Source: Kordiimonadales bacterium IMCC3096
GTDB taxonomy: Bacteria; Pseudomonadota; Alphaproteobacteria; Minwuiales; Minwuiaceae
Assembly (NCBI GenBank): GCA_016865035.1
Contig: CP018227.1
Span: forward strand, 4,188,115-4,252,114
Reading direction: 5' to 3'
Length of the DNA stretch: 64,000 nt
The position numbers and the translations under genes are program-made. Each line of letters begins with the position of its first letter. Within the stretch, counting starts at the first letter, position 1. Under the pieces are notes generated by a model. The model was not told where the DNA came from. It made no database searches and saw only the letters and a program-made list of their open reading frames with translations. This document shows, piece by piece, positions 28,526 through 41,940 of the stretch.

Positions 28526-31168
28526 TCAGCCGCGGCTCTTGATCACCCGTGCAGGCGTACCGGCGGCAACGGTGTATCCGGGGATATCGCCGGAGACCGT
28601 GGAGCGGGCGCTGATGATCGCGCCGTTGCCGATGCGCGACCCCGGCGTGACCGTGACACCGGAGGCAAGCCAGACATCCGCGCCGATCAGCACGGGCTCA
28701 TGGATATAGCCCTGGCGCATGATCGGCTCCCGGCTGTCGAAGCGGTGTTCGGAGGCAATGATGGTGCAGTGCCCCGCCGTGGCGCTGTCGCGTCCTATGG
28801 TGACATCCGCCCCGGCGTTGATGATGGAGGAGAAGGCGACCTGCGCCCGGTCCCCCAGCCGGATCGTGCCGTCCCGCGCCGCCACCAGCCGCGCGGTCGT
28901 GTCCACCGCCGCGCCATCACCCAGGATGATGCGCCCATTCTCCCGCACCTTCAGATCGACCCAGGGCATCAGGGTCACGGAGCGGCCGAGACGGATGTTG
29001 CGCGGGTCGCCATCAGGCCGCAGCAGGATGGGGCCGAGCACCCGCAGACCGGGACCATAGCCGATCCCCAGACGGCGGAAGGTGAAGCGGTAGTACCAGG
29101 TCCAGAAGCCGGCACGCCCCTTTGGCAGTGCCACAGGTTCGTCCGTGATCATCGGCACCTGATCGGCGGTCAGTTCGCATGTTTCAGCGCTCCCGACCGG
29201 CTCGGCGCGCAGACGCTCGATGGTCCGCGAGATCGCGCGAATGCTGTCCAGTGCTGTCGGATCGGCAGTGACATTCTCGGGGACTGAAACACCAAAGCGC
29301 TGCTCCAGCGCCAGGATCAGGGTCACGGTGGAAAAGGAGTCCACCAGCCCGCCCCGGATCAGGGACGCATCATCGTCAACCCGGCGACCGGACAGGACGT
29401 CATCCATCACCACCCGCCGCACATCCTCGATCAGTGAACGTGTCGTGACGGTCGGCATTTCTGATGTTGCATGCGAATCAATCGCCGGAAGTGCACGGTA
29501 ACGCTTGAGATTTTCCCCGCGCGCCATCTTGCCGGAGGTCGATTTCCTGAGCCAGCGCGGCTCCACGATGCGCACATCACCGGGCACGATCTCCGTGCCG
29601 GTCGCGACCGTTTCACGGATCGCGGCGGCGATCGCGGGCCATTCGGCCTGCGGTCGCTCGCTCTCCGCGATCAGCACCAGACGTTCGGTGCCTGCGCTCT
29701 CGTCATGATCGCCCAGGGCAACCGCGCGACCGGGCAGCACACCGTCCACACCACAAGCCAGTGCCTCCACGTCATGGGGGTGAATGTTCTTGCCGCCGAT
29801 GATGATCAGGTCGCGCTTGCGCCCGACCACGAACAGGTGCCCGTCCGCGAGGTAGCCAAGGTCACCGCTGCGATAGCGCCCGTTCCGCAGCACCTCGGCG
29901 GTGCGTTCCGGTTGCCCGTCGTAGCCGGTGAACATGGACGGGCCGCTGATCTCGATCTCGCCGACATGGCGCTCCGGCAGCGGCTTCCCGGACTCATCCA
30001 GGATTGTCAGTTGCGTGGCCGGCAGCGCAACACCCGATGACACCAGCATCCGGCCCGTCGCAGCCGGTTCCGCCACGTGTCGGTCGGTCAGTGCGGCAAT
30101 ATCCACCGTCTCCGTCCGCAGGGCTGTCTCGACCCCCCCCGATGTAGCGGCAAAGGTTGCCTCCGCCATCGCATAGGAACCGGCGAACGCTTCAGGGTTG
30201 AAACCGGCATCGGCGAAGCGGTCCAGAAAGGCCCCGTGCGCGGCCGCCGTTATCGGCTCCGAGCAGTTCACCAACCCGCGCAGTGACGACAGGTCATGGT
30301 CTCCCGCAGGCGCATTGCGCGCCATGAAGCTGTAGGCGAAGTTCGGCAGCCAGCTCAGTGTGCCGCGATGACGCTTCACCGCATCCAGCCAGAGTGTCGG
30401 ATTCTGCACCCAATCGAAGGGCGAGATCGCCACCAGACGGCAGCGCTTGATCAGGGGCAGGAAGAAGCAGGTGATCAACCCCATGTCGTGATAGAGCGGC
30501 AACCAGCTGACGATCACGTCGGATTCGCTCGCCCGGATCATGTCGCCATAAGCCGCGATCTGCCACAGCAACGCCCTGTGGCTGATCGTGACGCCCTTCT
30601 TCAGCCCGGTCGTGCCGGACGAATACTGCAGGAAGGCCGGATCATCGGGATCCATCGCAGGCCGCGCGAAGAGCCGGATCGGGTCGCCGTCGTTCGGCGG
30701 CGTCGATGCCGCTGTCTCCTCGTCGCGCGCGATCAGCAACGCATCGAACGTCGGCAGTGCGTCAACCAGCCCGGAGAGTTTCGGCGCCAGTTCGCCGTAG
30801 GTGACCAGCACGCGTGCGCGGCTGCCTTCCAGCAGGCTGCGCACGGTCTCGAAGTAGACATCCTCAGACAGCTTCGGTGACGGATGGGCGAACATGGCCG
30901 GCACCGCCCCCATCAGGATCGCCCCGATATAGGCGGTGTAGAGGTCGATGCCGTGCCTCAGCACCACAACAATCCGGTCGCCCTGTCCCACGCCCTGGTC
31001 CTGGTAGCGCACCGCCCAGGCATGCGCCCGGACGTATATCTCGTCGTAGGAGAAGTTCTGCTCCGTCCCGTCACCCTGGACCAGGGTCAGGAACGCACTG
31101 CTCCCCATCCGCGCCCGGTTGGCGAACAGCACGCCCTGCAGGGTGTTGTCAGCCCAGGGGGCGTTCAT
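28526..31168 (-). CDS. Trimodular acyl-AMP ligase / acyl carrier / hexapeptide acyltransferase
   Basis: An 880-residue fusion. Residues 1-570 are an FAAL-type adenylating enzyme (LQYSSGTTGLKKGV P-loop, WLPLYHDMGL and RSGDLGY). Residues about 585-660 are an acyl carrier domain with the phosphopantetheine Ser near 611 in GLVDSFSTV. Residues about 700-880 are a left-handed beta-helix acyltransferase with catalytic-type His in IIASEHRFD. The layout implies that one chain activates an acid, holds it as a thioester and transfers it to an acceptor, here probably a sugar. It is the last gene of the glycosylation operon and overlaps the preceding small gene by 20 bases. The acid is unknown. The adenylation domain has no CoA-ligase insertion evidence either way. 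Confidence 0.88.
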   Translation of the reverse strand: MNAPWADNTLQGVLFANRARMGSSAFLTLVQGDGTEQNFSYDEIYVRAHAWAVRYQDQGVGQGDRIVVVLRHGIDLYTAYIGAILMGAVPAMFAHPSPKLSEDVYFETVRSLLEGSRARVLVTYGELAPKLSGLVDALPTFDALLIARDEETAASTPPNDGDPIRLFARPAMDPDDPAFLQYSSGTTGLKKGVTISHRALLWQIAAYGDMIRASESDVIVSWLPLYHDMGLITCFFLPLIKRCRLVAISPFDWVQNPTLWLDAVKRHRGTLSWLPNFAYSFMARNAPAGDHDLSSLRGLVNCSEPITAAAHGAFLDRFADAGFNPEAFAGSYAMAEATFAATSGGVETALRTETVDIAALTDRHVAEPAATGRMLVSSGVALPATQLTILDESGKPLPERHVGEIEISGPSMFTGYDGQPERTAEVLRNGRYRSGDLGYLADGHLFVVGRKRDLIIIGGKNIHPHDVEALACGVDGVLPGRAVALGDHDESAGTERLVLIAESERPQAEWPAIAAAIRETVATGTEIVPGDVRIVEPRWLRKSTSGKMARGENLKRYRALPAIDSHATSEMPTVTTRSLIEDVRRVVMDDVLSGRRVDDDASLIRGGLVDSFSTVTLILALEQRFGVSVPENVTADPTALDSIRAISRTIERLRAEPVGSAETCELTADQVPMITDEPVALPKGRAGFWTWYYRFTFRRLGIGYGPGLRVLGPILLRPDGDPRNIRLGRSVTLMPWVDLKVRENGRIILGDGAAVDTTARLVAARDGTIRLGDRAQVAFSSIINAGADVTIGRDSATAGHCTIIASEHRFDSREPIMRQGYIHEPVLIGADVWLASGVTVTPGSRIGNGAIISARSTVSGDIPGYTVAAGTPARVIKSRG

Positions 31169-31493
31169 CCAGCCACTCCAGCACTGTCTGACTTTCGGCG
31201 GCACAATAGGCGTCGAAACGGTCCATCCGGTCCTGCTCGACCACCATCACGTAGATCTGGCCGGCACCATTGCGGACAAGGGCAGTCTTGAACCCTTCCC
31301 CCTTCAGGCGGCCATTGACGGACGGTGTGGCGTAGAACCCGAAGTCCTTCGCCGCCACGTCCATGCGACGACCGGAGGCCGTGACCATCGTGACCTGCTC
31401 ATCCGTCGCCAGATGCACGTCACCGCAATCGGAGATCGCGATGCCCGGTGCGGGCTGAAACACGCGCGGGGGTGATTTCTCGGCCAGCCTCAT
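31149..31493 (-). CDS. Small protein of unknown function in the glycosylation operon
   Basis: A 114-residue protein without signal peptide or membrane segment. I do not recognise a family. It looks like a beta-rich domain (ISDCGDVHLATDEQVTMVT, then DFGFYATPSVNGRL) with a C-terminal helix (DAYCAAESQTVLEWLDE). The ATG overlaps the stop of the sugar amidotransferase by 4 bases and its end overlaps the acyl-AMP ligase start by 20, so it is tightly bound into the operon. It could be an accessory subunit of either neighbour. An in-frame upstream start exists but the ATGA overlap favours 31493. Confidence 0.75.
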   Translation of the reverse strand: MRLAEKSPPRVFQPAPGIAISDCGDVHLATDEQVTMVTASGRRMDVAAKDFGFYATPSVNGRLKGEGFKTALVRNGAGQIYVMVVEQDRMDRFDAYCAAESQTVLEWLDERPLG

Positions 31494-32641
31494 GCCGCCT
31501 GCTCCAGATCCGCCCGCGGCCAGCGCCAGTCGGCAACCGGGAAGCCCGGCACGACCCACTGACCGTCCCGCTGCTGCCAGATCGCGTGGTCGCGAAAGCG
31601 TTCCTCCAGCTCGGCGAAGACCGCTGGCGACAGGTCCATGAACGCAAGCGCGCGGGCAATGTCGGCGTCGGGTCGCTGGTCGCCCAGCCGCGCGATGGTG
31701 GCCAGTGCCGCATCACGGCTGATGCGCCCGTTGCGGATTTCCAGCGAAAGGTTGTCGAACAGACGGGTGAAACCGAACTTCGGATACTTGAACCAGTGAT
31801 GGATCGAGATGAAGTCGCAGTCGATGTCCGCATAGTCATACAGGCCGACCTTCGGCCCCTCCGCCCGGCGCTGGAACCCGTGCTTCTCCGCCACCCGCAG
31901 GCTCTCGGAAGGATCCCAGGGCAGGTAGTAGCCCAGGAAGATGGAGCGGATGTCCGCCGCGTCGAACTCGGCCTCGGTCGGGGGGGTGAAGGGTTCAAGC
32001 TCGCGCGGGCTGAGCTCGTCACCGATCCAGTCCTGCGCCTCCCGCCCCTGCAGGATGCCATGGCGTTTCAGCCAGGCATGGTTCAGCAGGTCGAGATCGC
32101 TGTCACCGGCATCGCCGCCATATTCCATGAACGGGCTCTCGCCCCAGACGATCAGCGGCACACCCAGACGGGCGGCAAAGCGCATCGGAATGGCGAAGAT
32201 CGCCAGATGCATCGGCACCGCGCTGGACCCGGTCTCGATCAGGGTCCGGCGCATGAAACGCGCTTCGACGGACGGGTCGATGGCGAAGTCGACATGATCG
32301 ACACCCAGCCGCACCAGTGCATCCAGATTGGACTGGCCCAAGGCATTGCGGCCCGGCGACTTCCAGGTCACGGCCAGCACCTTCAGACCCATGTCGAGAC
32401 AGCGCGCGACCTGCCAGAAGCTGTCCTTGCCGCCGGAGACGGGCACGATGCAGTCATAGGCGGCATTGCGCGCCTTCGCCCAGCCCACGACCTCGTTCAG
32501 GCGCTGCTCCCGCGCGGCCCAGTCGATCTCCACCCGGTTGCGCCGGTGTCCCTTGCAGGCATTGCAGACGCCATCGGACCCGATGGTGATGCCGGGACGG
32601 CTGTCAGGCAGGACACAGGACTGGCAGAAACGAACATTCAT
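31490..32641 (-). CDS. N-acetyl sugar amidotransferase (WbpG/PseA type)
   Basis: A 383-residue PP-loop ATPase of the N-acetyl sugar amidotransferase family. The ATP pyrophosphatase loop is SGGKDS at residues 69-74, and the N terminus has the CQSC and CNAC pairs expected to bind zinc. WbpG makes acetamidino sugars in lipopolysaccharide, with ammonia from HisH/HisF; PseA makes acetamidino-pseudaminic acid for flagellin. No hisH/hisF are here, but an AsnB-type glutamine amidotransferase is directly upstream with a 4-base overlap and could supply ammonia. ATG at 32641 is preferred over a GTG two codons earlier. Confidence 0.87.
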   Translation of the reverse strand: MNVRFCQSCVLPDSRPGITIGSDGVCNACKGHRRNRVEIDWAAREQRLNEVVGWAKARNAAYDCIVPVSGGKDSFWQVARCLDMGLKVLAVTWKSPGRNALGQSNLDALVRLGVDHVDFAIDPSVEARFMRRTLIETGSSAVPMHLAIFAIPMRFAARLGVPLIVWGESPFMEYGGDAGDSDLDLLNHAWLKRHGILQGREAQDWIGDELSPRELEPFTPPTEAEFDAADIRSIFLGYYLPWDPSESLRVAEKHGFQRRAEGPKVGLYDYADIDCDFISIHHWFKYPKFGFTRLFDNLSLEIRNGRISRDAALATIARLGDQRPDADIARALAFMDLSPAVFAELEERFRDHAIWQQRDGQWVVPGFPVADWRWPRADLEQAA

Positions 32642-34461
32642 GCCCACTGCTCCATGAAGAGTTTCGCGGAAACGAAGGAAAACAGGAACTTGGAGAAACT
32701 GTTTGGCAGATCAGGTTCACGCATCGCCGCCTCGATCCGGTCACGTTTCACCAGATTGAAGACTGGCCCGTCATCCAGGATACGCTCGCGGGTCTTCGGG
32801 TTATCCAGGTCGAACAGGCTGCGGAAGGCCGCGTTGAACCCCTTCTTGTGCCGGTCCAGCCGCACCTTGTCGTTCAGCACACCACGCGACGCGGCACGCA
32901 GCGGTGCTTTGGCATGGCCGTCGCGGATCAGGTGTTCCGGCGGGATCGTGTAGGCGAAGTCGCAGAGCTTCCGGTCCAGGTAGGGACTGCGGTTCTCCAC
33001 CGACGAGCGCATGGAGTTCAGGTCGTCCTCCCGCAGGATGATCGGCACCGCCTCCGTCCGCAGCTCGTTCAGCATCCGGTTGCGCAGCAGATCGTCGGAC
33101 AGTGCGCTTTCCGTGAATGGCTCGTCGAAAGGCGTCGTCAGATAGTCGGAGAACACGTCGCGGTTCAGGTAGATATGGTCACGGAACTGCGGCTGCGCGC
33201 TGTAGAGGTCAGGGTCCTGCAGATGCGGGTTCCGCACGATGGGCTGCACGTGGCGCTGCCAGTCGGCGCGCCGCTCCGCCCGGTCCGGATGTCCCTGCAT
33301 GGCCTGCAGATGCAGGTTGAAATGGTCGTAATAGCCGGTGACCAGCTCGTCCGCACCGGTGCCAGAAACCGAGACACGGAAACCCTCCGCCCGCATCGCC
33401 TCCGACAGCATGCTGTGCACATAGTAGGACGCGGTGATGACCGGCTTGTCATGATAGGCGACCAAGTCGGCGAAACGGTCCAGATCGCTGGCCTGCTCCA
33501 GCCGGATCTCGTGATGACGGCAACGCAGGTCGCGCACGGTTGCGGCGATGTTCGCGCTCTCGTCATAGCGCGGGTCAGGGTCGATGATGGAAAAGGACGC
33601 CACATCCGCGCCATGGCGCTTCGCGGCAAAGGACGCCAGCGCGGCACTGTCGACACCGCCTGACAGGCAGAAGGCGATCGGCACGTCGGCGCGCAGGCGC
33701 AGGCGGATGCTCTCTTCGAGATGAAACCGCAGTCCCTCGACCGCTGCACCGAAGGACATGCCGGTTTCCGGGCGGTACTCGGGCCGCCAGTATTCGTCGA
33801 TGCTGACACCACGATTGTCGCCCACGACCAGATTGTGCCCCGGCGGCAGTTCATGGACACCGGCATGGAACAGATCGCCGGACTTGTAGAGCGACTTGTA
33901 GCCGTTCACGAGATAGCGGCGCACGGTCTCCTCGTTCACGGAGGGGCGCACGCCATTGAGTGCTGCCAGCGCCTTGATCTCGGAGGCGAAGCGGAACCCC
34001 TGCCCCATGTCCTGCCAGTAGAGCGGCTTTTCCCCGAACGGATCGCGGGAGATCAGCAGCCGACGGCGGTTGGCGTCATGCAGCGCGAAGGCCCACATGC
34101 CCTCGATGTGATCCACCAGCCGGTCGCCCCAGGCGCGATAGGCCTCCAGCAGGACCTCCGTGTCGGACTCGGTGGTGAAGGTCACGCCCCTGGCCCGCAG
34201 GATCTGGCGCACCTCGACATAGTTGTAGATCTCGCCATTGAAGACGACGGTCAGACCATCGCGACGAAACGGCTGATCGGCGCGAGAATCCAGATCGATG
34301 ATCGCAAGCCGTGTGTGCAGCAACGTCAGCCAGTTCGATCCCATCTCGACGCTGAAGCGGCCCGACGCATCGGGACCACGCCGCCCCATGGCCTCAAGAC
34401 AGGCGGTTTCCCGCTGCGGCAGCGGCCGGTCAGGTCCAAAATGTCCGGCGATCCCGCACAT
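32638..34461 (-). CDS. AsnB-type glutamine-hydrolysing amidotransferase
   Basis: A 607-residue protein with the complete class II glutaminase domain (Cys2 nucleophile in MCGIAGHFG, then FNGEIYNY) followed by a PP-loop synthetase domain ([16 protein letters not shown]). Family members amidate aspartate, but homologues in polysaccharide clusters amidate sugar acids or other carboxylates. The location between neuB-like and wbpG-like genes, with 6-base and -4-base junctions, argues for a sugar-modification role. Both catalytic domains look intact. True asparagine synthesis remains an alternative. Confidence 0.9.
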   Translation of the reverse strand: MCGIAGHFGPDRPLPQRETACLEAMGRRGPDASGRFSVEMGSNWLTLLHTRLAIIDLDSRADQPFRRDGLTVVFNGEIYNYVEVRQILRARGVTFTTESDTEVLLEAYRAWGDRLVDHIEGMWAFALHDANRRRLLISRDPFGEKPLYWQDMGQGFRFASEIKALAALNGVRPSVNEETVRRYLVNGYKSLYKSGDLFHAGVHELPPGHNLVVGDNRGVSIDEYWRPEYRPETGMSFGAAVEGLRFHLEESIRLRLRADVPIAFCLSGGVDSAALASFAAKRHGADVASFSIIDPDPRYDESANIAATVRDLRCRHHEIRLEQASDLDRFADLVAYHDKPVITASYYVHSMLSEAMRAEGFRVSVSGTGADELVTGYYDHFNLHLQAMQGHPDRAERRADWQRHVQPIVRNPHLQDPDLYSAQPQFRDHIYLNRDVFSDYLTTPFDEPFTESALSDDLLRNRMLNELRTEAVPIILREDDLNSMRSSVENRSPYLDRKLCDFAYTIPPEHLIRDGHAKAPLRAASRGVLNDKVRLDRHKKGFNAAFRSLFDLDNPKTRERILDDGPVFNLVKRDRIEAAMREPDLPNSFSKFLFSFVSAKLFMEQWA

Positions 34462-34467
34462 GGCCGG

Positions 34468-35481
34468 TCAGCCCAGCATCTCGGCGGTGAAGCGATCACC
34501 CATGGCCATCGGAGCCATCAGGGTACGACCGATCACCTCATGCTCCCGCCCCGGCGGCAGACCGTCGCCCGGGCGCACCCAGACGAGATCCCTGTCGGCG
34601 ACCCGGTGGCCCGCTGCAAGCGGACGACGGGCAGCGATGGAGCGTCGCACCAGCGGCGCGGTATCCCGCTCGATGGCGGCCATGGTCACTTCGCCGGACC
34701 CCAGCAGGGTCTCGGTCATGCGCACGCGCTGTACGAGTTCCTTCATCTCCGCCGGATCGGCCGAGAGCTGGTGATCGCGGAAATCGCTGTGGTCGTGGGC
34801 AATGGTGAAATGCTTCTCGACAATGCGCGCGCCCAGGGCGACCGCGACCACGGCTGCTTCATTGCCGCTGGTGTGGTCTGAGTAGCCGACATCGCAGGAC
34901 GGCAGCGCATCGATCATGGTGCGGACTGCGGCGACATTGGCGTGCTCCGGCGGGGTCGGATAGGCCGTCACGCAATGCAGCACGCCCAGACCCGGCGCCA
35001 CACCGTCGGCGACCCAACGGGACTTGATGCGACAGACGGACTGCTGCACGCAGTCCATGTCCGCCAGCCCGGTGGAAATGATCGTCGGCTTCGCCGTGGC
35101 CGCGACATAGTCGATCAGCGGCCAGAAGGTATTGTCCGAACTGGCGATCTTGAAGGCGTCCACGTGATCGTTCAGGAAGACGGCACTGTCCATGTCCAGC
35201 GGGGTGGAGATGAAGGCGAGGCCAGCGGCCCGGGCCAGCTCTCCCAGTTCGGCGAACTGGTCGTGGGTCAGTTCGAAGCCCTTCATCCGCTGGAACCGTA
35301 CCGCATCGACCGGCGCGATGAACTGGTCGGTACTGAAGGTCTGGAATTTCACTGCATCGACACCGGCGTCAGCGGCCAGATGGACCATTTCCCTGGCCAG
35401 CCCGAAGTCACCTTCGTGATTGTTGCCGACCTCGGCGATGATGAAGGTTGCGTCGTTCGTGTTCCTGCCTGCGATCTGCAT
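34468..35481 (-). CDS. NeuB-family nonulosonic acid synthase
   Basis: A 337-residue sialic-acid-synthase family protein that condenses phosphoenolpyruvate with an N-acyl hexosamine to make a nine-carbon acid. Motifs include IIAEVGNNHEGD at the N terminus, KFQTF, GYSDHTSG and VEKHFT, and a C-terminal antifreeze-like SAF domain from about residue 280 (RRSIAARRPLAAGH). The start at 35481 (MQIAG) is chosen because the preceding acetyltransferase stop lies 6 bases upstream; an open frame continues into that gene but is not coding. Whether the product is sialic, legionaminic or pseudaminic type cannot be decided from sequence. Confidence 0.93.
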   Translation of the reverse strand: MQIAGRNTNDATFIIAEVGNNHEGDFGLAREMVHLAADAGVDAVKFQTFSTDQFIAPVDAVRFQRMKGFELTHDQFAELGELARAAGLAFISTPLDMDSAVFLNDHVDAFKIASSDNTFWPLIDYVAATAKPTIISTGLADMDCVQQSVCRIKSRWVADGVAPGLGVLHCVTAYPTPPEHANVAAVRTMIDALPSCDVGYSDHTSGNEAAVVAVALGARIVEKHFTIAHDHSDFRDHQLSADPAEMKELVQRVRMTETLLGSGEVTMAAIERDTAPLVRRSIAARRPLAAGHRVADRDLVWVRPGDGLPPGREHEVIGRTLMAPMAMGDRFTAEMLG

Positions 35482-35486
35482 GGCGC

Positions 35487-36185
35487 TCACCCGTGGTAAT
35501 GAAAGACGTAGTTGGAGGCGATCAGGCGAAAGTTGTCGCCCATATAGCTGCGCAGCGAAGCGGCGTTGGCGAGTTGTGTGCCGACCCGCAGGATGGCAAT
35601 TCCCGGCACCATGGACTCGGACCAGGCGATCATGTCGCGTGCCAGTCCCCTGCCCCGGTAGCGATTGTCGACCGCCACCAGGTCGATGGTCAGCACATCC
35701 CCCGAACGCAGGTACTGCAGGAACCCGGCCGTCACACCATCGACCTCGGCCACGATCATGCCGTCGCCGCGCTTGCCTTCGAACCAGTTGCCCGCCCACT
35801 GGCGCTTGATCTCGTTGGCGGTATTCGTCGTCACCATCGGATCCAGATGGAACCGGCTGAAGGAAAAGCTGCGTTCGGCGATGCTCTCCACCGCCGCGCG
35901 ATCCTTCGGCTTTGCCGCCCGGCTGAACCGGCTGTTGGCCGCGCCCCAGACGGGGCGTTCGAAGTTCATGCCCGTATCGACCAGGCGGAACCCCTTGTCC
36001 TCCAGCCGACGTGAGACTTCGGTACGGGAAACAGGCAGGCGTGCATCGACAAAGCACGGCTCGCCGTCAGGCAGTTCGATGGCCCGTCCGGGTTCGGCGG
36101 ACGGTGTCAGATGCCAGACAGACTTGCCCAGCAGGCCGGACAGCCAGTCATCCGGCCGCAGCGCCATGGGAGCATGCGCGTTCAC
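35487..36185 (-). CDS. GNAT family N-acetyltransferase
   Basis: A 232-residue GNAT protein. The acetyl-CoA pyrophosphate loop is RYRGRGLARDM, preceded by the core strand VLTIDLVAVD; the C-terminal part ANAASLRSYMGDNFRLIASNYVFHYH matches sugar amine acetyltransferases related to WecD and PseH. The first 90 residues form an additional N-terminal region. It probably acetylates (or otherwise acylates) the amino group set by the DegT aminotransferase. It overlaps the epimerase gene by 4 bases. Confidence 0.86.
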   Translation of the reverse strand: MNAHAPMALRPDDWLSGLLGKSVWHLTPSAEPGRAIELPDGEPCFVDARLPVSRTEVSRRLEDKGFRLVDTGMNFERPVWGAANSRFSRAAKPKDRAAVESIAERSFSFSRFHLDPMVTTNTANEIKRQWAGNWFEGKRGDGMIVAEVDGVTAGFLQYLRSGDVLTIDLVAVDNRYRGRGLARDMIAWSESMVPGIAILRVGTQLANAASLRSYMGDNFRLIASNYVFHYHG

Positions 36186-37297
36186 GCCCAGGCACGCCGC
36201 TTCAGATAGACGACCTGGCCGTCATCCGGGGCGGTGTTCGTCCCGATGAAGCTGGCCCAGTTGTCCTTGTACCAGTTGATGTAATCGACGAAGCCGACAT
36301 CAAGCGGATGGCTCGGACGGTAACCGATCAGGCTCCTGGCCTTGTCCACCGACAGGGTACCGCGTTCCGGCATCAGGCTGTCGCGATCATTGTGGCGCAC
36401 TTCGACGCCGGGGAAATGCTCCCGGATGATCTCCACCATCTCGTTCAGCGAACGGCCCTGGCCATAGGTCAGGTTGAAGATCTCGTTGGCGGCGTCGGGC
36501 GATGCCAGCGCCGCGATCACACCACCAACCAGATCCTGGATGTAGGTGAAGTCCAGGCAGTCGGTACCATCACCATTGATGGTCAGCGTGTTGCCGCGCA
36601 GCGCGTTCTCGATCAGCGCCTGGCCGACACGGCGGCTGACGCAGCGCTCCCCGTACAGCGCGGAGGGACGCACGATCGTGTAGGGCAGATCGAAGACCTG
36701 ATTGTAGGCGATCACCATCTTCTCGCCCGCGAACTTCAGCGCGCCATAGATGCCCATCGGGTTGCAGGTGGTCTCCTCGTCCACGATGCCGTCGGCAAAG
36801 GTGCCGTAGACCATGGAGGACGAGAAATAGACGAACCGCTGCACGTTCAGGCGCGTGGAGCGCGAAGCGTCCAGCGCGTTCTCCAGGGTCCGCAGCGAAT
36901 GGTCGAACGTGGAGTACGGGTCCTTGTTCGAGCGGTTGGCGTGCGAAACGGCAGCCAGATGCACGATGTAGTCCGGGTTCAGGTCTTCCAGCGCCTCTGA
37001 CAGGGCATGGTAGTCACGGGCATCCGCCTCGATGAACGGCACCTGGGCCTGATGCAGCAGGTTCATCCGCTGCTTGATGAAGTTCAGATAGATCTCGCCG
37101 TTCGGGTTCGTGTAACGCTCCCGCTCGATGGCGTAGTAGTTGTTGACGCCAAGACTGTCGATCACGGCCACTTCGACGCCGAGCGACTTCATCTTCAGCG
37201 CCATGTTGTGGCCAATGAACCCGGCACCGCCGATGATCACGACCTTCTTGCCGGTCAGTGCCGACTGCTCTGTGTGAAAGTTGGTTTCAACGGACAT
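36182..37297 (-). CDS. NAD-dependent epimerase/dehydratase (extended SDR)
   Basis: A 371-residue extended short-chain dehydrogenase acting on nucleotide sugars. The Rossmann motif is GGAGFIG at residues 23-29, and the catalytic Tyr184/Lys188 pair sits in YGALK with SSSMVYG upstream. The overall look is of a UDP-hexose(uronate) 4-epimerase rather than a 4,6-dehydratase, but this distinction is uncertain. If it is a dehydratase it would be the LegB- or PseB-like first step. It is overlapped at its start by 11 bases of the aminotransferase gene. Confidence 0.9.
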   Translation of the reverse strand: MSVETNFHTEQSALTGKKVVIIGGAGFIGHNMALKMKSLGVEVAVIDSLGVNNYYAIERERYTNPNGEIYLNFIKQRMNLLHQAQVPFIEADARDYHALSEALEDLNPDYIVHLAAVSHANRSNKDPYSTFDHSLRTLENALDASRSTRLNVQRFVYFSSSMVYGTFADGIVDEETTCNPMGIYGALKFAGEKMVIAYNQVFDLPYTIVRPSALYGERCVSRRVGQALIENALRGNTLTINGDGTDCLDFTYIQDLVGGVIAALASPDAANEIFNLTYGQGRSLNEMVEIIREHFPGVEVRHNDRDSLMPERGTLSVDKARSLIGYRPSHPLDVGFVDYINWYKDNWASFIGTNTAPDDGQVVYLKRRAWA

Positions 37298-38534
37298 CGT
37301 GCAAAGCCTTCTTCATGGCGTGAATGATGAAATCCATGTCGTCATGGTTCAGATGCGGGCCGACGGGCAGCGCGATGGAACACCGGCTGATCTCGGTCGC
37401 ATTGGGAAAGTCCTCCGCGCGGAGGCCGTACTTGTCGCTGTAGTAGGCCAGTGCCGGGACCGGGCCGGGGTAGTAGACACTGGTGCCCACGCCCTGTGCG
37501 TTCAGCGCCGCCGCAACGTCGGAACGCCGCGATGCCCGGGCGCCCTTCAGCACCACCGACAGGCAGTAATGACTGCTCTGGAACCGGCCATTGCTGGACT
37601 GGAACAGGTGCAGACCGTCCAGTTCCTTCAGCCCGGCCTCCAGCCGTTCATAGTTGGCATGACGCGCATCCAGGAACCCCTGGACCTGCTTCAGCTGCTC
37701 GATCCCCATCGCCGCCTGCATCTCGTTCATGCGGTAGTTGAAGCCGAGCTGGGTGACGTCATAGACGCCGGGTTCCTTGCGCTCCGTCACCGTGCGGTCC
37801 AGGCCGAAGGCCTTCTTGCGGCGGATGCGTTCGGCCAGCGCGTCGTCACGGGTCAGGACCATGCCCCCCTCCGCCGTCGTCATGTGCTTGACGGGGTAGA
37901 AGGAGAAGCAGCCCATGTCGCCCATCAGACCGGCGTGGATGCCGTCCAGGTAGGTGCCGACGGCCAGCGCCGCGTCTTCCATGACGAACAGGCCATGCTT
38001 CGCGGCAATGGCGTTGATGCGCACCATGTCGACCGGCATGCCCAGGTAATGGACGATGGAGATTGCCTTCGTGGCGGGGGTGATCGCCGCCTCGATCCGG
38101 TCGATGTCGATATTGCCTGTTTCCGGTTCCGCATCCACGAACACCGGCTTCGCGCCGACATATTCGACGGCGTGCGCGGTGGCGGTGTGGGTCTGTGCGG
38201 GCACGATGACCTCATCCCCGGCCCCCAGACCAAGCTGGAAATAGCCGAGATGCAGCCCTGCGGTGCAGGAGGAGACGGTGATCGCCTGCCCGCCATTGGT
38301 GAAGGCGGCGAAATCCTCCTCGAACTTCAGGGCACGGGGACCGTGAACCAGGATCGGGCTTTCCAGCACCTCCAGCACGGCACGGCGCTCGGCCTCGCCG
38401 ATGATCGGACGGCCGAAATGGATCTGGCGGAAAGCGGAATTGTCAGAGCTGCTCGACAGCGATGGACTTGCCGGTGTGAGCGGCGCGTTCGATGGCGAAA
38501 CAGACGGCGAGGGAGCGGAATACGTCATCTGCAC
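37287..38534 (-). CDS. DegT/DnrJ/EryC1-family sugar aminotransferase
   Basis: A 415-residue PLP-dependent aminotransferase for keto nucleotide sugars. The PLP lysine is Lys216 in SFYPVKHMTTAEGG; VMEDAALAVG carries the pyridine-nitrogen Asp. It would use glutamate to put an amino group on a C3 or C4 keto sugar. The first about 33 residues are Ser/Pro-rich and are encoded wholly within an overlap with the 3' end of the oxidoreductase gene; no ATG, GTG or TTG start exists closer to the conserved core, so the extension is probably real. Its partner may be the epimerase/dehydratase or the Gfo/Idh enzyme. Confidence 0.92.
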   Translation of the reverse strand: MQMTYSAPSPSVSPSNAPLTPASPSLSSSSDNSAFRQIHFGRPIIGEAERRAVLEVLESPILVHGPRALKFEEDFAAFTNGGQAITVSSCTAGLHLGYFQLGLGAGDEVIVPAQTHTATAHAVEYVGAKPVFVDAEPETGNIDIDRIEAAITPATKAISIVHYLGMPVDMVRINAIAAKHGLFVMEDAALAVGTYLDGIHAGLMGDMGCFSFYPVKHMTTAEGGMVLTRDDALAERIRRKKAFGLDRTVTERKEPGVYDVTQLGFNYRMNEMQAAMGIEQLKQVQGFLDARHANYERLEAGLKELDGLHLFQSSNGRFQSSHYCLSVVLKGARASRRSDVAAALNAQGVGTSVYYPGPVPALAYYSDKYGLRAEDFPNATEISRCSIALPVGPHLNHDDMDFIIHAMKKALHDVR

Positions 38535-39441
38535 TCACCTCCGGCGCGCGGTCATGCAGCACCGCGTCCACGAAATCATGTAACAGGTCACCCTTGTCGA
38601 CACCGGGATAGGCCTCCCTCATTGTTTCCGGCCTTCTGCCGGGATGCCGATCACGGTAAACAAACGCACTTTCCAAACCGTTAACGAAACTGGCGTTCGT
38701 GCCGTAGACCTCCAGCTTGTGGAAATGCGGGTGCACGCAGCCGCCGTTGCAGCCGATCTTCGCGACCATGCCGCTCTCGAAACGGACCAGCGCCTGCACC
38801 AGGTCGAAGTTGGCAAAGGCGCTGTCGGCGGTGGCGATGCGGTTGCCCATGGCGGTCACTTCCACCGCGCGGTCACCGGTCAGCCAGAGCACCAGGTCGA
38901 TCATGTGGACCGCGCCCCCCAGCACCAGGCTGTAGCCCGGCAATTCACCGCGCCAGCCGCCCAGCAGCTTGTGGATGCGGCCATACTGGTAATCGGCGTC
39001 GATGTGGAACAGGCGGCCATAATCCCCTGCCGCGATGTCAGCCCTGAGCTTCAGGAAACGGGGACAGCGGCGCAGGATCAGGTTCGAGGAGATCTTCAGG
39101 TGCGGCTTCTGGTTCAGTTTCGCCCGGATCTGGCGCGCATGGTCGATTTCCAGCACCAGCGGCTTCTCGACAAAGACATGCTTGTCGGCGTCCAGCGCCC
39201 GCATCACCTGCGCGAAATGATCCTGATCGTGGGAGGCGATGGAGACGATGGAAACGTCCGGGTCGTCCAGCACGGCATCCGCATTGTCCGCGATTTCCCG
39301 GTCCGGGAAACGTGTGCGCACGTCAGCCCGCTTGGTGGGACAGAAATCGGCCAGTCGCGTGACGCGGCATTCGGGATGACGTTCATAGCCACCGATATGA
39401 CGTTCACCTACGCCCAGGCCGATGATCCCCGCCTGGATCAT
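38443..39441 (-). CDS. Gfo/Idh/MocA-family sugar oxidoreductase
   Basis: A 332-residue NAD(P)-dependent oxidoreductase. The N-terminal Rossmann segment IIGLGVGERHIGGYERHPE and the EKPLVLEIDHA motif with its catalytic Lys define the family. In WlbA-type pathways such enzymes oxidise C3 of a nucleotide sugar before a DegT aminotransferase acts, and here that aminotransferase is the next gene with a 92-base overlap. An inositol- or glucose-fructose-type activity is the alternative but is less consistent with the operon. Overlaps the cytidylyltransferase gene by 4 bases. Confidence 0.88.
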   Translation of the reverse strand: MIQAGIIGLGVGERHIGGYERHPECRVTRLADFCPTKRADVRTRFPDREIADNADAVLDDPDVSIVSIASHDQDHFAQVMRALDADKHVFVEKPLVLEIDHARQIRAKLNQKPHLKISSNLILRRCPRFLKLRADIAAGDYGRLFHIDADYQYGRIHKLLGGWRGELPGYSLVLGGAVHMIDLVLWLTGDRAVEVTAMGNRIATADSAFANFDLVQALVRFESGMVAKIGCNGGCVHPHFHKLEVYGTNASFVNGLESAFVYRDRHPGRRPETMREAYPGVDKGDLLHDFVDAVLHDRAPEVSADDVFRSLAVCFAIERAAHTGKSIAVEQL

Positions 39442-40139
39442 GACGCCACCTGGCCCGTGGTCCGGGGCAGTTCGGCGAGTTCATCCCAGCGATAGCGCCA
39501 TGTCGGCGCATTCAGGTCGCGGGCGACGGCGCGAAAGCGCTCGAAGTCCTCTTCCGTATCCACCACCATGGAGGTCTCGCCACTGTCGAACCGGGAAGTG
39601 ATATTGACGATGCGATAGCGATCCGGGCTGCGGTAGAACCAGGGGGTCACATGCTCACGGTCCGACGCGTCGGTCATCTCCGCCTCTGCCGACAGGAATG
39701 CGTCCGAAGACACCACCTCGACCGACTGCCCCTTGGGGAAGGTGCGCGGGAATACATTGGTCACGACATCGGCACCGCCGTTGCGGAACCGGGTTACCGC
39801 ATCATCAACCAGCCGCCGGTCGATCAGCGGGCTGTCGCCGGAGACCCGGACGAACGCGCGGACGGGGAAGCGTTCCAGCACGGTCCGGAAGCGCCCGGCC
39901 ACATCGTCGAGCGGCCCGCGTATCACGGGCACGTTGCGGGCGGTGCAATGGGCTGCCAGCGCGTCATCCAGCGCGTCGTCTGACGTTGCCACGATCAGCG
40001 GGCGGGCAACACGACAGCGCTCCAGCGCATCCAGCGTGTAGTCGATCAGCCGACGCCCTGCGACGGGGCGCATCACCTTGGCCGGACACCGGGTCGATCC
40101 GGTGCGGGCCTGGACGATGATCGGGACCAGGTCATGCAT
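39438..40139 (-). CDS. Cytidylyltransferase (NeuA/SpsF-like)
   Basis: A 233-residue nucleotidyltransferase of the acylneuraminate cytidylyltransferase family. The N-terminal IIVQARTGSTRCPAKVMRPV is the NTP-binding loop and VRVSGDSPLID the metal-binding region. It would activate the nonulosonic acid as its CMP form for transfer. It resembles SpsF-type members more than classical NeuA. Start at 40139 overlaps the end of the TPR glycosyltransferase gene by 8 bases; the reading frame continues upstream but is the shadow of that gene. Confidence 0.88.
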   Translation of the reverse strand: MHDLVPIIVQARTGSTRCPAKVMRPVAGRRLIDYTLDALERCRVARPLIVATSDDALDDALAAHCTARNVPVIRGPLDDVAGRFRTVLERFPVRAFVRVSGDSPLIDRRLVDDAVTRFRNGGADVVTNVFPRTFPKGQSVEVVSSDAFLSAEAEMTDASDREHVTPWFYRSPDRYRIVNITSRFDSGETSMVVDTEEDFERFRAVARDLNAPTWRYRWDELAELPRTTGQVAS

Positions 40140-41940
40140 CGCTGCGTTCCAGTGCCGGTTCCAGACCCAGCCGCCGACCCGTCGCGATGCGGGCCGCCTT
40201 GCAGGGGACGGCCGGCCATTCGGCGCGGTTGGTGGCAACGAATATCTCGGCCTTCGGGAACCATGGCTCGATCCCCGCACCGAAGTGGAACCGGTCAGGC
40301 TTGTGCAGCAGGGTGACTGTCGGCACGCCCACCGCGCCCGCGATGGCGACAGGCGACGACGAAATGGACACCACGAAATCCAGCGCAACCGTATAGGCCG
40401 CTGCTTCGTCGAGTTCGTTGCGGCGGTCGATGTCGTCCCAGTCATGCAGGTCGATGCCGAATTCCGTCTTCAGACGGGCGCGATCCTCGCTGGCGTCCTT
40501 GTACATGACGTCGATGAAGTGCGCGCCCTTCGACGCCAGATCGAAGAACGGCTGAAAGTCGCTCAGCGACATGTAGCCCTTGGAACGGATCGGGGTCACG
40601 AAGCCGCCGGACCAGCAGAGACCGACCTTCGGCCCCTCCCCCAGCGCATCGAACCGCGCCTTCCAGAAGGCCACGCGCTCCGGGTCCGGCGTCAGATAGC
40701 TGTCGCCGCGCCGGAAGCTCTCCATGTCCGGACGCAAGATGCTGAAGAGGGAACCGGAGGGAATGAACAGGTCCGGCTTCGGAACCTCTTCGTCCTTCAG
40801 CCAGCCATAGTGACGGTGGATCTTGTTGTTGGACCGGAAGGTGACATGCCGGTGCACCGTTGCCTGCGGGAAGGAACGCTGGAACCAGCTCACCAGGCGG
40901 CGGTCGCATTCGATGATGACGTGACCGGCCAGGTCGATGACTTCCTGGAAGGCACTGGCGAAGATGATGGCGTCGCCGATACCCTGTTCGTCGGAGATCA
41001 GCAGGGTCTTGTCGGAAATGTCCTCGCCGTGCCAGCGCGGCAGGTCATGGACGAAGACCACGGAGTCACCGCGGCGACGGTCCAGCCGCCATTCGTATTC
41101 GGCCCAGCCCTTCTCCAGGTTGCCCGTGCCGAGCAGTGACGAGGCATAGTTGAAGCGGGTATCGGCATCGTCGGGACGCATGCTCACCGCCTTCTCCAGA
41201 TATGGCAGCGATTCCGCGAAACGCCCCTCCGCCGAATAGGCATGGCCGATGTTGGCGTAGGCGATCTCGAATTCCGGCGCGAGCCGCAGCGCCTCGTCGA
41301 AGAACGGGCGGGCCTGATCGGCACCCTGCGCCTCCGCCACCGTGACGGCCAGCGCCTGCCAGAGTGTCGGATCCTCGACCTTCGTCTGCACCGCGAACTT
41401 CAGGGTATCGATGGCGGCCTCATAGTCACCGCCCGCGCGCTTCGCCGACGCCATCGCAATCGGGCCACGGCTGTCGTCGGGTGTGCGCTGCATGACCAGC
41501 GCGAACATGTTCTCCGCCGCCTTCAGCATGCCGAGGTCCTGCGCCAGCAGGCCGATGCCATAGATGATCTCGGGATCCTCGCCGGACACCTTCAGTGCCT
41601 TCTCCAGCACGTGCACCGCCGCCTGCACCTGCCCTGCGTGCCGCAGGTTGTTGCCCAGCACCAGCAACGTGTCGGCATTGGCCGGGTCAAGCACATGCGC
41701 CTGCAGGAATTCGACCGCCGCGTCGTCGAACCTGCCCTGCCCGGCGAACCTGCTTCCCTGCCTGAGGTGCTGAACCGCGCGCTTGAGGTCGGCGCGGGAA
41801 GGCTTCCGGTCATCATCGACCGTCTGCAGCGTCGCCATGATCTGATAGGTCCCGGCCTGCATGATGTTGCGACCCAGGGTCGGAGCGTCCTGACGCAGGC
41901 TGGCGTCCGAGTTCTTCTTGCGCGCGGCGTTGCGGGCCAT
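40132..41940 (-). CDS. TPR-domain glycosyltransferase, FlmG-like flagellin glycosyltransferase
   Basis: A 602-residue two-part protein. Residues about 50-275 are a tandem array of tetratricopeptide repeats (for example EIAYANIGHAYSAEGRFAESLPYLEKA). Residues about 290-600 form a GT-B-like glycosyltransferase domain with ISDEQGIGDAI and the C-terminal DFVVSISSSPVAIAGAVGVPTVTLL sugar-nucleotide site. Caulobacter FlmG has this architecture and binds flagellin through its TPRs. First gene of the eleven-gene operon and divergent from flbT, which supports a flagellin target. GAGAGG precedes the ATG. The FlmG assignment rests on architecture and context. Confidence 0.83.
   Translation of the reverse strand: MARNAARKKNSDASLRQDAPTLGRNIMQAGTYQIMATLQTVDDDRKPSRADLKRAVQHLRQGSRFAGQGRFDDAAVEFLQAHVLDPANADTLLVLGNNLRHAGQVQAAVHVLEKALKVSGEDPEIIYGIGLLAQDLGMLKAAENMFALVMQRTPDDSRGPIAMASAKRAGGDYEAAIDTLKFAVQTKVEDPTLWQALAVTVAEAQGADQARPFFDEALRLAPEFEIAYANIGHAYSAEGRFAESLPYLEKAVSMRPDDADTRFNYASSLLGTGNLEKGWAEYEWRLDRRRGDSVVFVHDLPRWHGEDISDKTLLISDEQGIGDAIIFASAFQEVIDLAGHVIIECDRRLVSWFQRSFPQATVHRHVTFRSNNKIHRHYGWLKDEEVPKPDLFIPSGSLFSILRPDMESFRRGDSYLTPDPERVAFWKARFDALGEGPKVGLCWSGGFVTPIRSKGYMSLSDFQPFFDLASKGAHFIDVMYKDASEDRARLKTEFGIDLHDWDDIDRRNELDEAAAYTVALDFVVSISSSPVAIAGAVGVPTVTLLHKPDRFHFGAGIEPWFPKAEIFVATNRAEWPAVPCKAARIATGRRLGLEPALERSDA

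Follow-up and report, generated by a model that had tools for sequence, protein, structure and literature searches.

The last gene of an 11-gene nonulosonic-acid cassette in the window, the 64,000-nucleotide stretch of the Kordiimonadales bacterium IMCC3096 genome analyzed here, encodes in one chain a fatty acyl-AMP ligase (FAAL) domain, an acyl carrier domain and a left-handed beta-helix acyltransferase domain (the FAAL-ACP-LbH fusion; Table 1). We propose, with a probability of about 0.6, that the fusion is a self-loading acyltransferase: it would activate a free acid directly, with no CoA involved, and attach it to a nonulosonic acid through an ester bond. Judging from the families of its domains, the process would run as follows: i) the FAAL domain would adenylate a free carboxylic acid with ATP; ii) the acyl group would move, without CoA taking part, to the phosphopantetheine arm that Ser611 of the fused carrier bears; iii) the carrier, flexibly tethered at both ends, would swing over to the C-terminal beta-helix domain, which is expected to be a trimer; iv) His808 would activate a hydroxyl on the nonulosonic acid (or on an activated or precursor form of it), which would then receive the acyl group as an ester; v) a FlmG-like enzyme would then put the finished sugar on flagellin. 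Established by the analysis are which domains are present, the conservation of their catalytic residues, the operon around the gene and the recurrence of the fusion; which acid is loaded and at which position it is accepted are guesses. Each of the domains is ordinary, while the three-domain chain in a sugar pathway appears to be new.

Table 1. Cassette genes, in operon order, and domains of the fusion (window positions).
Feature	Position	Strand	Support or remark
FlmG-like TPR + glycosyltransferase, 602 aa, first in operon	40132..41940	-	TPR in N half
SpsF-like cytidylyltransferase	39438..40139	-	Pfam CTP_transf_3 89 bits
Gfo/Idh/MocA oxidoreductase	38443..39441	-	
PseC-like aminotransferase	37287..38528	-	Pfam DegT 372 bits; TIGR03588 under cut-off
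SDR sugar-nucleotide epimerase/dehydratase	36182..37297	-	Pfam Epimerase
WecD-like GNAT N-acyltransferase, presumed 4-amino-sugar N-acetyltransferase	35487..36185	-	
NeuB-type nonulosonic acid synthase	34468..35481	-	Pfam NeuB 209 bits; start picked by sequence
AsnB-type glutamine amidotransferase, N-terminal Cys2 (MCGIAG)	32638..34461	-	TIGR01536 above cut-off
WbuX-type N-acetyl-sugar amidotransferase	31490..32641	-	TIGR03573 303 bits, cut-off 203
114-aa conserved protein, overlaps both neighbours	31149..31493	-	orthologues ~45% in G303, MAG_12
FAAL-ACP-LbH fusion gene, 880 aa, last in cassette	28526..31168	-	one intact open frame
FAAL domain, residues 1-560	29489..31168	-	Pfam AMP-binding E 8e-59; best solved matches FAALs
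Acyl carrier domain, residues 577-655; phosphopantetheine site Ser611, codon 29336-29338	29204..29440	-	PP-binding
Left-handed beta-helix acyltransferase domain, residues 685-880, His808	28529..29116	-	Pfam Hexapep above cut-off

The first-pass annotation had read these coordinates as one protein with activation, thioester-holding and transfer domains, and both the coordinates and the domains were borne out: a single open frame runs from an ATG at 31168 to a stop at 28526, and its translation matches Pfam AMP-binding, PP-binding and Hexapep. The N-terminus "MNAPW" is kept in 5/5 aligned Minwuia copies. The 4.29 Mb single-contig genome carries one such gene, its remaining matches being partial (adenylating-enzyme or hexapeptide). 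Between Minwuia species, purifying selection acts on each of the three domains: crude Nei-Gojobori values of dN/dS (computed by script) against the closest Minwuia species were 0.11 for the FAAL domain, 0.13 for the carrier, 0.30 for the tether and 0.03 for the beta-helix domain, and against more distant species the tether was always the loosest, followed by the carrier, with the beta-helix domain the tightest. An AlphaFold2 model of the 880-aa chain, built as a monomer on 24 alignment rows, had a mean pLDDT of 83.5, with three confident domains and pLDDT below 50 at the tethers (564-576 and 657-701); its pTM was 0.64, at which the relative placement of the domains carries no information. The fusion is thus predicted to consist of three folded domains on flexible tethers.

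All eleven genes of the cassette lie on one strand (41940 to 28526), and most neighbours overlap or are a few bases apart. It holds a NeuB-type synthase, a cytidylyltransferase and an aminotransferase, the combination by which a nonulosonic-acid locus was recognized, while the cut-offs of the subtype equivalogs (Neu, Pse, Leg) were missed. No UDP-releasing PseG or NeuC was found in the cassette; elsewhere in the genome there is a NeuC and, for PseG, only a sub-cut-off match. With NeuB, the PseC-like aminotransferase and the cytidylyltransferase upstream on the same strand, the earlier assignment to a sugar operon instead of a polyketide cluster stands. A polyketide or peptide loading module was rejected, since no condensing enzyme, ketosynthase or condensation domain was recognized in the cassette. 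Among the accessory genes, AsnB might supply ammonia, or amidate a carboxylate; WbuX is paired with it (31490-34461), no HisH/HisF being seen, and at a second nonulosonic-acid locus of the same genome (L068:14598-16742) a WbuX adjoins a HisF-like gene (by eye). The SDR (36182-37297) has SSSMVYG in place of the T/S-D-E motif usual in 4,6-dehydratases and is possibly an epimerase; the cassette showed no recognizable 4,6-dehydratase (both by eye). The 114-aa protein had no Pfam or PDB match and its model was too poor for a fold search; its orthologues lie at L035:8420-8752 and L036:12150-12479, within the corresponding cassettes.

The intact fusion is present in five of the seven Minwuia genomes, this one included, and other Minwuia likewise have it within this cassette. 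In G002 (bin_bo, L033) ~139 extra bases within the beta-helix domain disrupt the frame (the interruption, at L033:10639-10764, may be real or an assembly error), and G005 (89% complete) gave no match. The same architecture, at 40-45% identity, was found in a Phycisphaeraceae MAG (L034, JAHBWZ010000007.1) and in "bacterium MAG_12" (L035), in both cases in cassettes of much the same genes; that of MAG_12 is cut by the contig end, and in the Phycisphaeraceae MAG no NeuB lies beside the fusion and no 114-aa protein was found in the genome. Because its domains are all under purifying selection and its architecture recurs in two other lineages, the fusion is no chance reading frame. A plasmid search gave no match, and viral contigs yielded one small fragment only. 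Sampling of Pseudomonadota and of the phylum to which the Phycisphaeraceae MAG belongs turned up no more close copies, only weaker relatives at sugar loci.

Both halves of the chain also exist separately. The cassette of G303, an alphaproteobacterium from a different family, has the beta-helix protein by itself (228 aa, 53% identical), together with WbuX, the 114-aa protein and two AsnB paralogues (within L036:10250-14341); no FAAL was detected in that genome at E 1e-40. On the other hand, G017, Minwuia G003 and G050 have single-domain FAALs (35-40% identical) directly beside a free carrier gene, the carriers being Pfam matches in G017 and Minwuia G003 and read by eye in G050. Their union here in a single chain, when each half also exists by itself, speaks for two consecutive activities. 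The idea that the fused carrier is closely related to a free one was rejected, as the two gave no alignment even at E 100. In the beta-helix tree 8/11 inner branches were open, at which resolution the tree does not give the order of fusion and fission, nor whether the G303 state is ancestral or a loss. Minwuia G003 has another FAAL and free carrier with a weak GDSL-like protein, a TPR protein and an AsnB (L080:3642-9898).

The annotated C-terminal hexapeptide acyltransferase was recovered by Pfam Hexapep and by matches to WbbJ and, in the PDB, to LacA, maltose acetyltransferase and NeuO, and AlphaFold2 prediction of this domain, which the annotation had proposed as a check, returned a left-handed beta-helix fold. 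His808, the presumed catalytic base, is invariant in the alignments (Minwuia, Phycisphaeraceae MAG, MAG_12). The domain scored 72 bits against WbbJ (PRK09677; cut-off 243), by which it is related to WbbJ proper but not a member, and 35 bits against the NeuD/PglB/VioB family (TIGR03570; cut-off 161), so far under the cut-off that an N-acyltransferase of VioB/NeuD type was rejected. An O-acyl ester is therefore the likelier product than an amide, because WbbJ and the sugar O-acetyltransferases score best while NeuD/PglB/VioB score poorly, and because a GNAT for amino-group acylation is already encoded in the cassette. WbbJ, LacA, maltose acetyltransferase and NeuO share with the domain its fold, His position and sugar acceptors, NeuO acting on a nonulosonic acid polymer; unlike the fusion, they have no loading module. 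These four enzymes use acetyl-CoA, whereas LpxA and LpxD are beta-helix enzymes using acyl-ACP.

The beta-helix domain would take its acyl group from the built-in carrier, but the fact that most of its relatives are acetyl-CoA enzymes counts against self-loading. The two activities might then never meet, the beta-helix domain O-acetylating the sugar from acetyl-CoA while the FAAL-ACP part hands a different acyl group to another enzyme of the cassette, be it the GNAT, the glycosyltransferase or the 114-aa protein. G303, which keeps the beta-helix protein in its cassette without a close FAAL, points the same way, as it indicates that this domain can work without a loading module. However, three distant lineages have retained the fusion, in which a flexible tether links the carrier to the beta-helix domain that immediately follows it, and no other acyl-ACP-dependent enzyme was recognized in the cassette. 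We therefore regard two separate activities as unlikely.

Less probable still is transfer of the acyl group to some other glycan, e.g., lipopolysaccharide or a lipid carrier, by a gene that merely shares the operon. The resemblance of the beta-helix domain to the LPS O-acetyltransferase WbbJ would fit such a role, as would the other surface-glycan-like genes that adjoin related FAAL and carrier pairs, but largely the same genes (AsnB, WbuX, PseC, SDR and GNAT) accompany the beta-helix domain in distant lineages, and no polymerase, flippase or LPS gene was recognized in the cassette.

By sequence and by fold, the closest solved relatives of the FAAL domain are FAALs (the best three gave TM 0.89-0.90 by target length), and K547 is its presumed catalytic residue. 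The elements that make FAALs reject CoA have been located in EcFAAL as W224, M231 and F279, bulky residues at the base of the CoA pocket, and the helix R251-P259 (PMC8460268). Aligned to the fusion, these markers fall on W222, M229, F277 and the FAAL-specific helix 249-257, which aligns gap-free with EcFAAL and is helical in the model at 250-255. Markers and helix were present in 5/5 fusions and 5/5 standalone FAALs of one alignment, whereas five CoA-ligase-like paralogues of the same genome lacked the W/M/F markers and had a gap at the helix position. After the HDMGL motif the fusion has TCFF, versus the smaller GGIL of an olefin synthase FAAL in the alignment, and the bulkier residues might narrow the acyl tunnel.

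As to the carrier, its serine had been placed near residue 611 and lies exactly there. D610-S611 is invariant in six homologues (Minwuia, Phycisphaeraceae MAG, MAG_12), and a helix begins at 611 in the model, so that Ser611 is at the helix start. Pfam PP-binding (PF00550) was above cut-off in four of the five excised carrier segments; the carrier of the Phycisphaeraceae MAG is strongly diverged, with no Pfam match, but still keeps Asp-Ser. That the protein is just an acyl-CoA synthetase of the usual kind whose carrier is vestigial, with no special function, as the name of the best NCBIfam match (the CoA ligase PRK07768, below its cut-off) would suggest, is very improbable given the CoA-excluding elements, the Asp-Ser kept in every lineage and the purifying selection on the carrier.

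The link to flagellin glycosylation suggested by the annotation is likely, given that the operon starts with a FlmG-like gene and that flagellin genes occur in 7/7 cassette genomes checked (9 kb downstream in one Minwuia genome); flagellin as the destination is only a guess, though the sugar is probably one that decorates the flagellum. Caulobacter FlmG, which pseudaminylates flagellin, has 596 aa with TPR plus glycosyltransferase (PMC7591256); in the 602-aa FlmG-like protein the TPR half was found and the glycosyltransferase half was not recognized by Pfam or NCBIfam, and the two are likened by size and layout, not by alignment. The Caulobacter pathway joins TPR plus glycosyltransferase to cytoplasmic nonulosonic acid synthesis, a layout that the Minwuia cassette would share; unlike the Minwuia cassette, its table lists no FAAL-carrier-acyltransferase (PMC7591256). 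Outside Minwuia the flagellin destination is weaker, because matches to the FlmG-like protein there are at TPR level or lacking. A second FlmG-like protein, 30% identical, is encoded elsewhere in the IMCC3096 genome (G000:C1:3231135-3232664) and also occurs in two other Minwuia genomes.

Among known systems, the FAAL-ACP didomain proteins HapA and NocH of polyketide/peptide clusters establish the logic of FAAL plus carrier (PMC11837247). They too fuse FAAL to carrier and activate a free acid without CoA, but they pass the acyl group to a ketosynthase or peptide synthetase, whereas the Minwuia chain carries its own beta-helix sugar acyltransferase in a nonulosonic-acid operon. AasR/AcpR of Caulobacter/Rhodobacteria sphingolipid synthesis (PMC9386255) resemble the fusion in that a dedicated acyl-ACP synthetase, with its carrier, supplies a pathway other than polyketide synthesis; they differ in being separate proteins and in delivering the acyl group to serine palmitoyltransferase. 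The annotation had compared the gene with Pseudomonas syringae viosamine, whose acyl group is built with an ACP, the FabH-like synthase VioS and the reductase VioR, and is attached by VioB to an amino group (PMC3927599). This comparison holds loosely, as ACP-dependent acylation of a flagellin sugar. A close likeness does not: the viosamine island uses condensation and reduction, separate proteins and a VioB-type transferase to give an N-acyl product, while here no condensing enzyme was recognized, the acid would be activated directly and the transferase domain scores higher with WbbJ than with the VioB family. No paper joining FAAL with flagellin glycosylation or nonulosonic acid was found in a search that left out most subscription journals, which makes this a weak absence; the FAAL review (PMC11837247) uses neither "hexapeptide" nor "sugar" in its main text.

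More tentatively, and with somewhat less than even confidence, the fusions could together form a family of sugar acyltransferases, each charging its own carrier with a chosen free acid for delivery to a nonulosonic acid, their cassette having spread between Alphaproteobacteria, Planctomycetota and an unplaced bacterium, with an acylated (possibly fatty-acylated) flagellin or surface glycan as product. If true, the fusion would be a one-protein, CoA-free route for putting a chosen acid on a sialic-acid-like sugar, it would predict an acylated nonulosonic acid that cannot be inferred from standard cassettes, and it would extend the known roles of FAALs, hitherto in polyketide, peptide and lipid pathways; as a compact module, it might allow sugar acylation to be altered by a change of FAAL.

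The IMCC3096 genome also carries a second NeuB/NeuC locus (L068:7664-15926; G000:C1 about 2465660-2473930), which adjoins an acyl-CoA synthetase (PRK12582-like) on the opposite strand.
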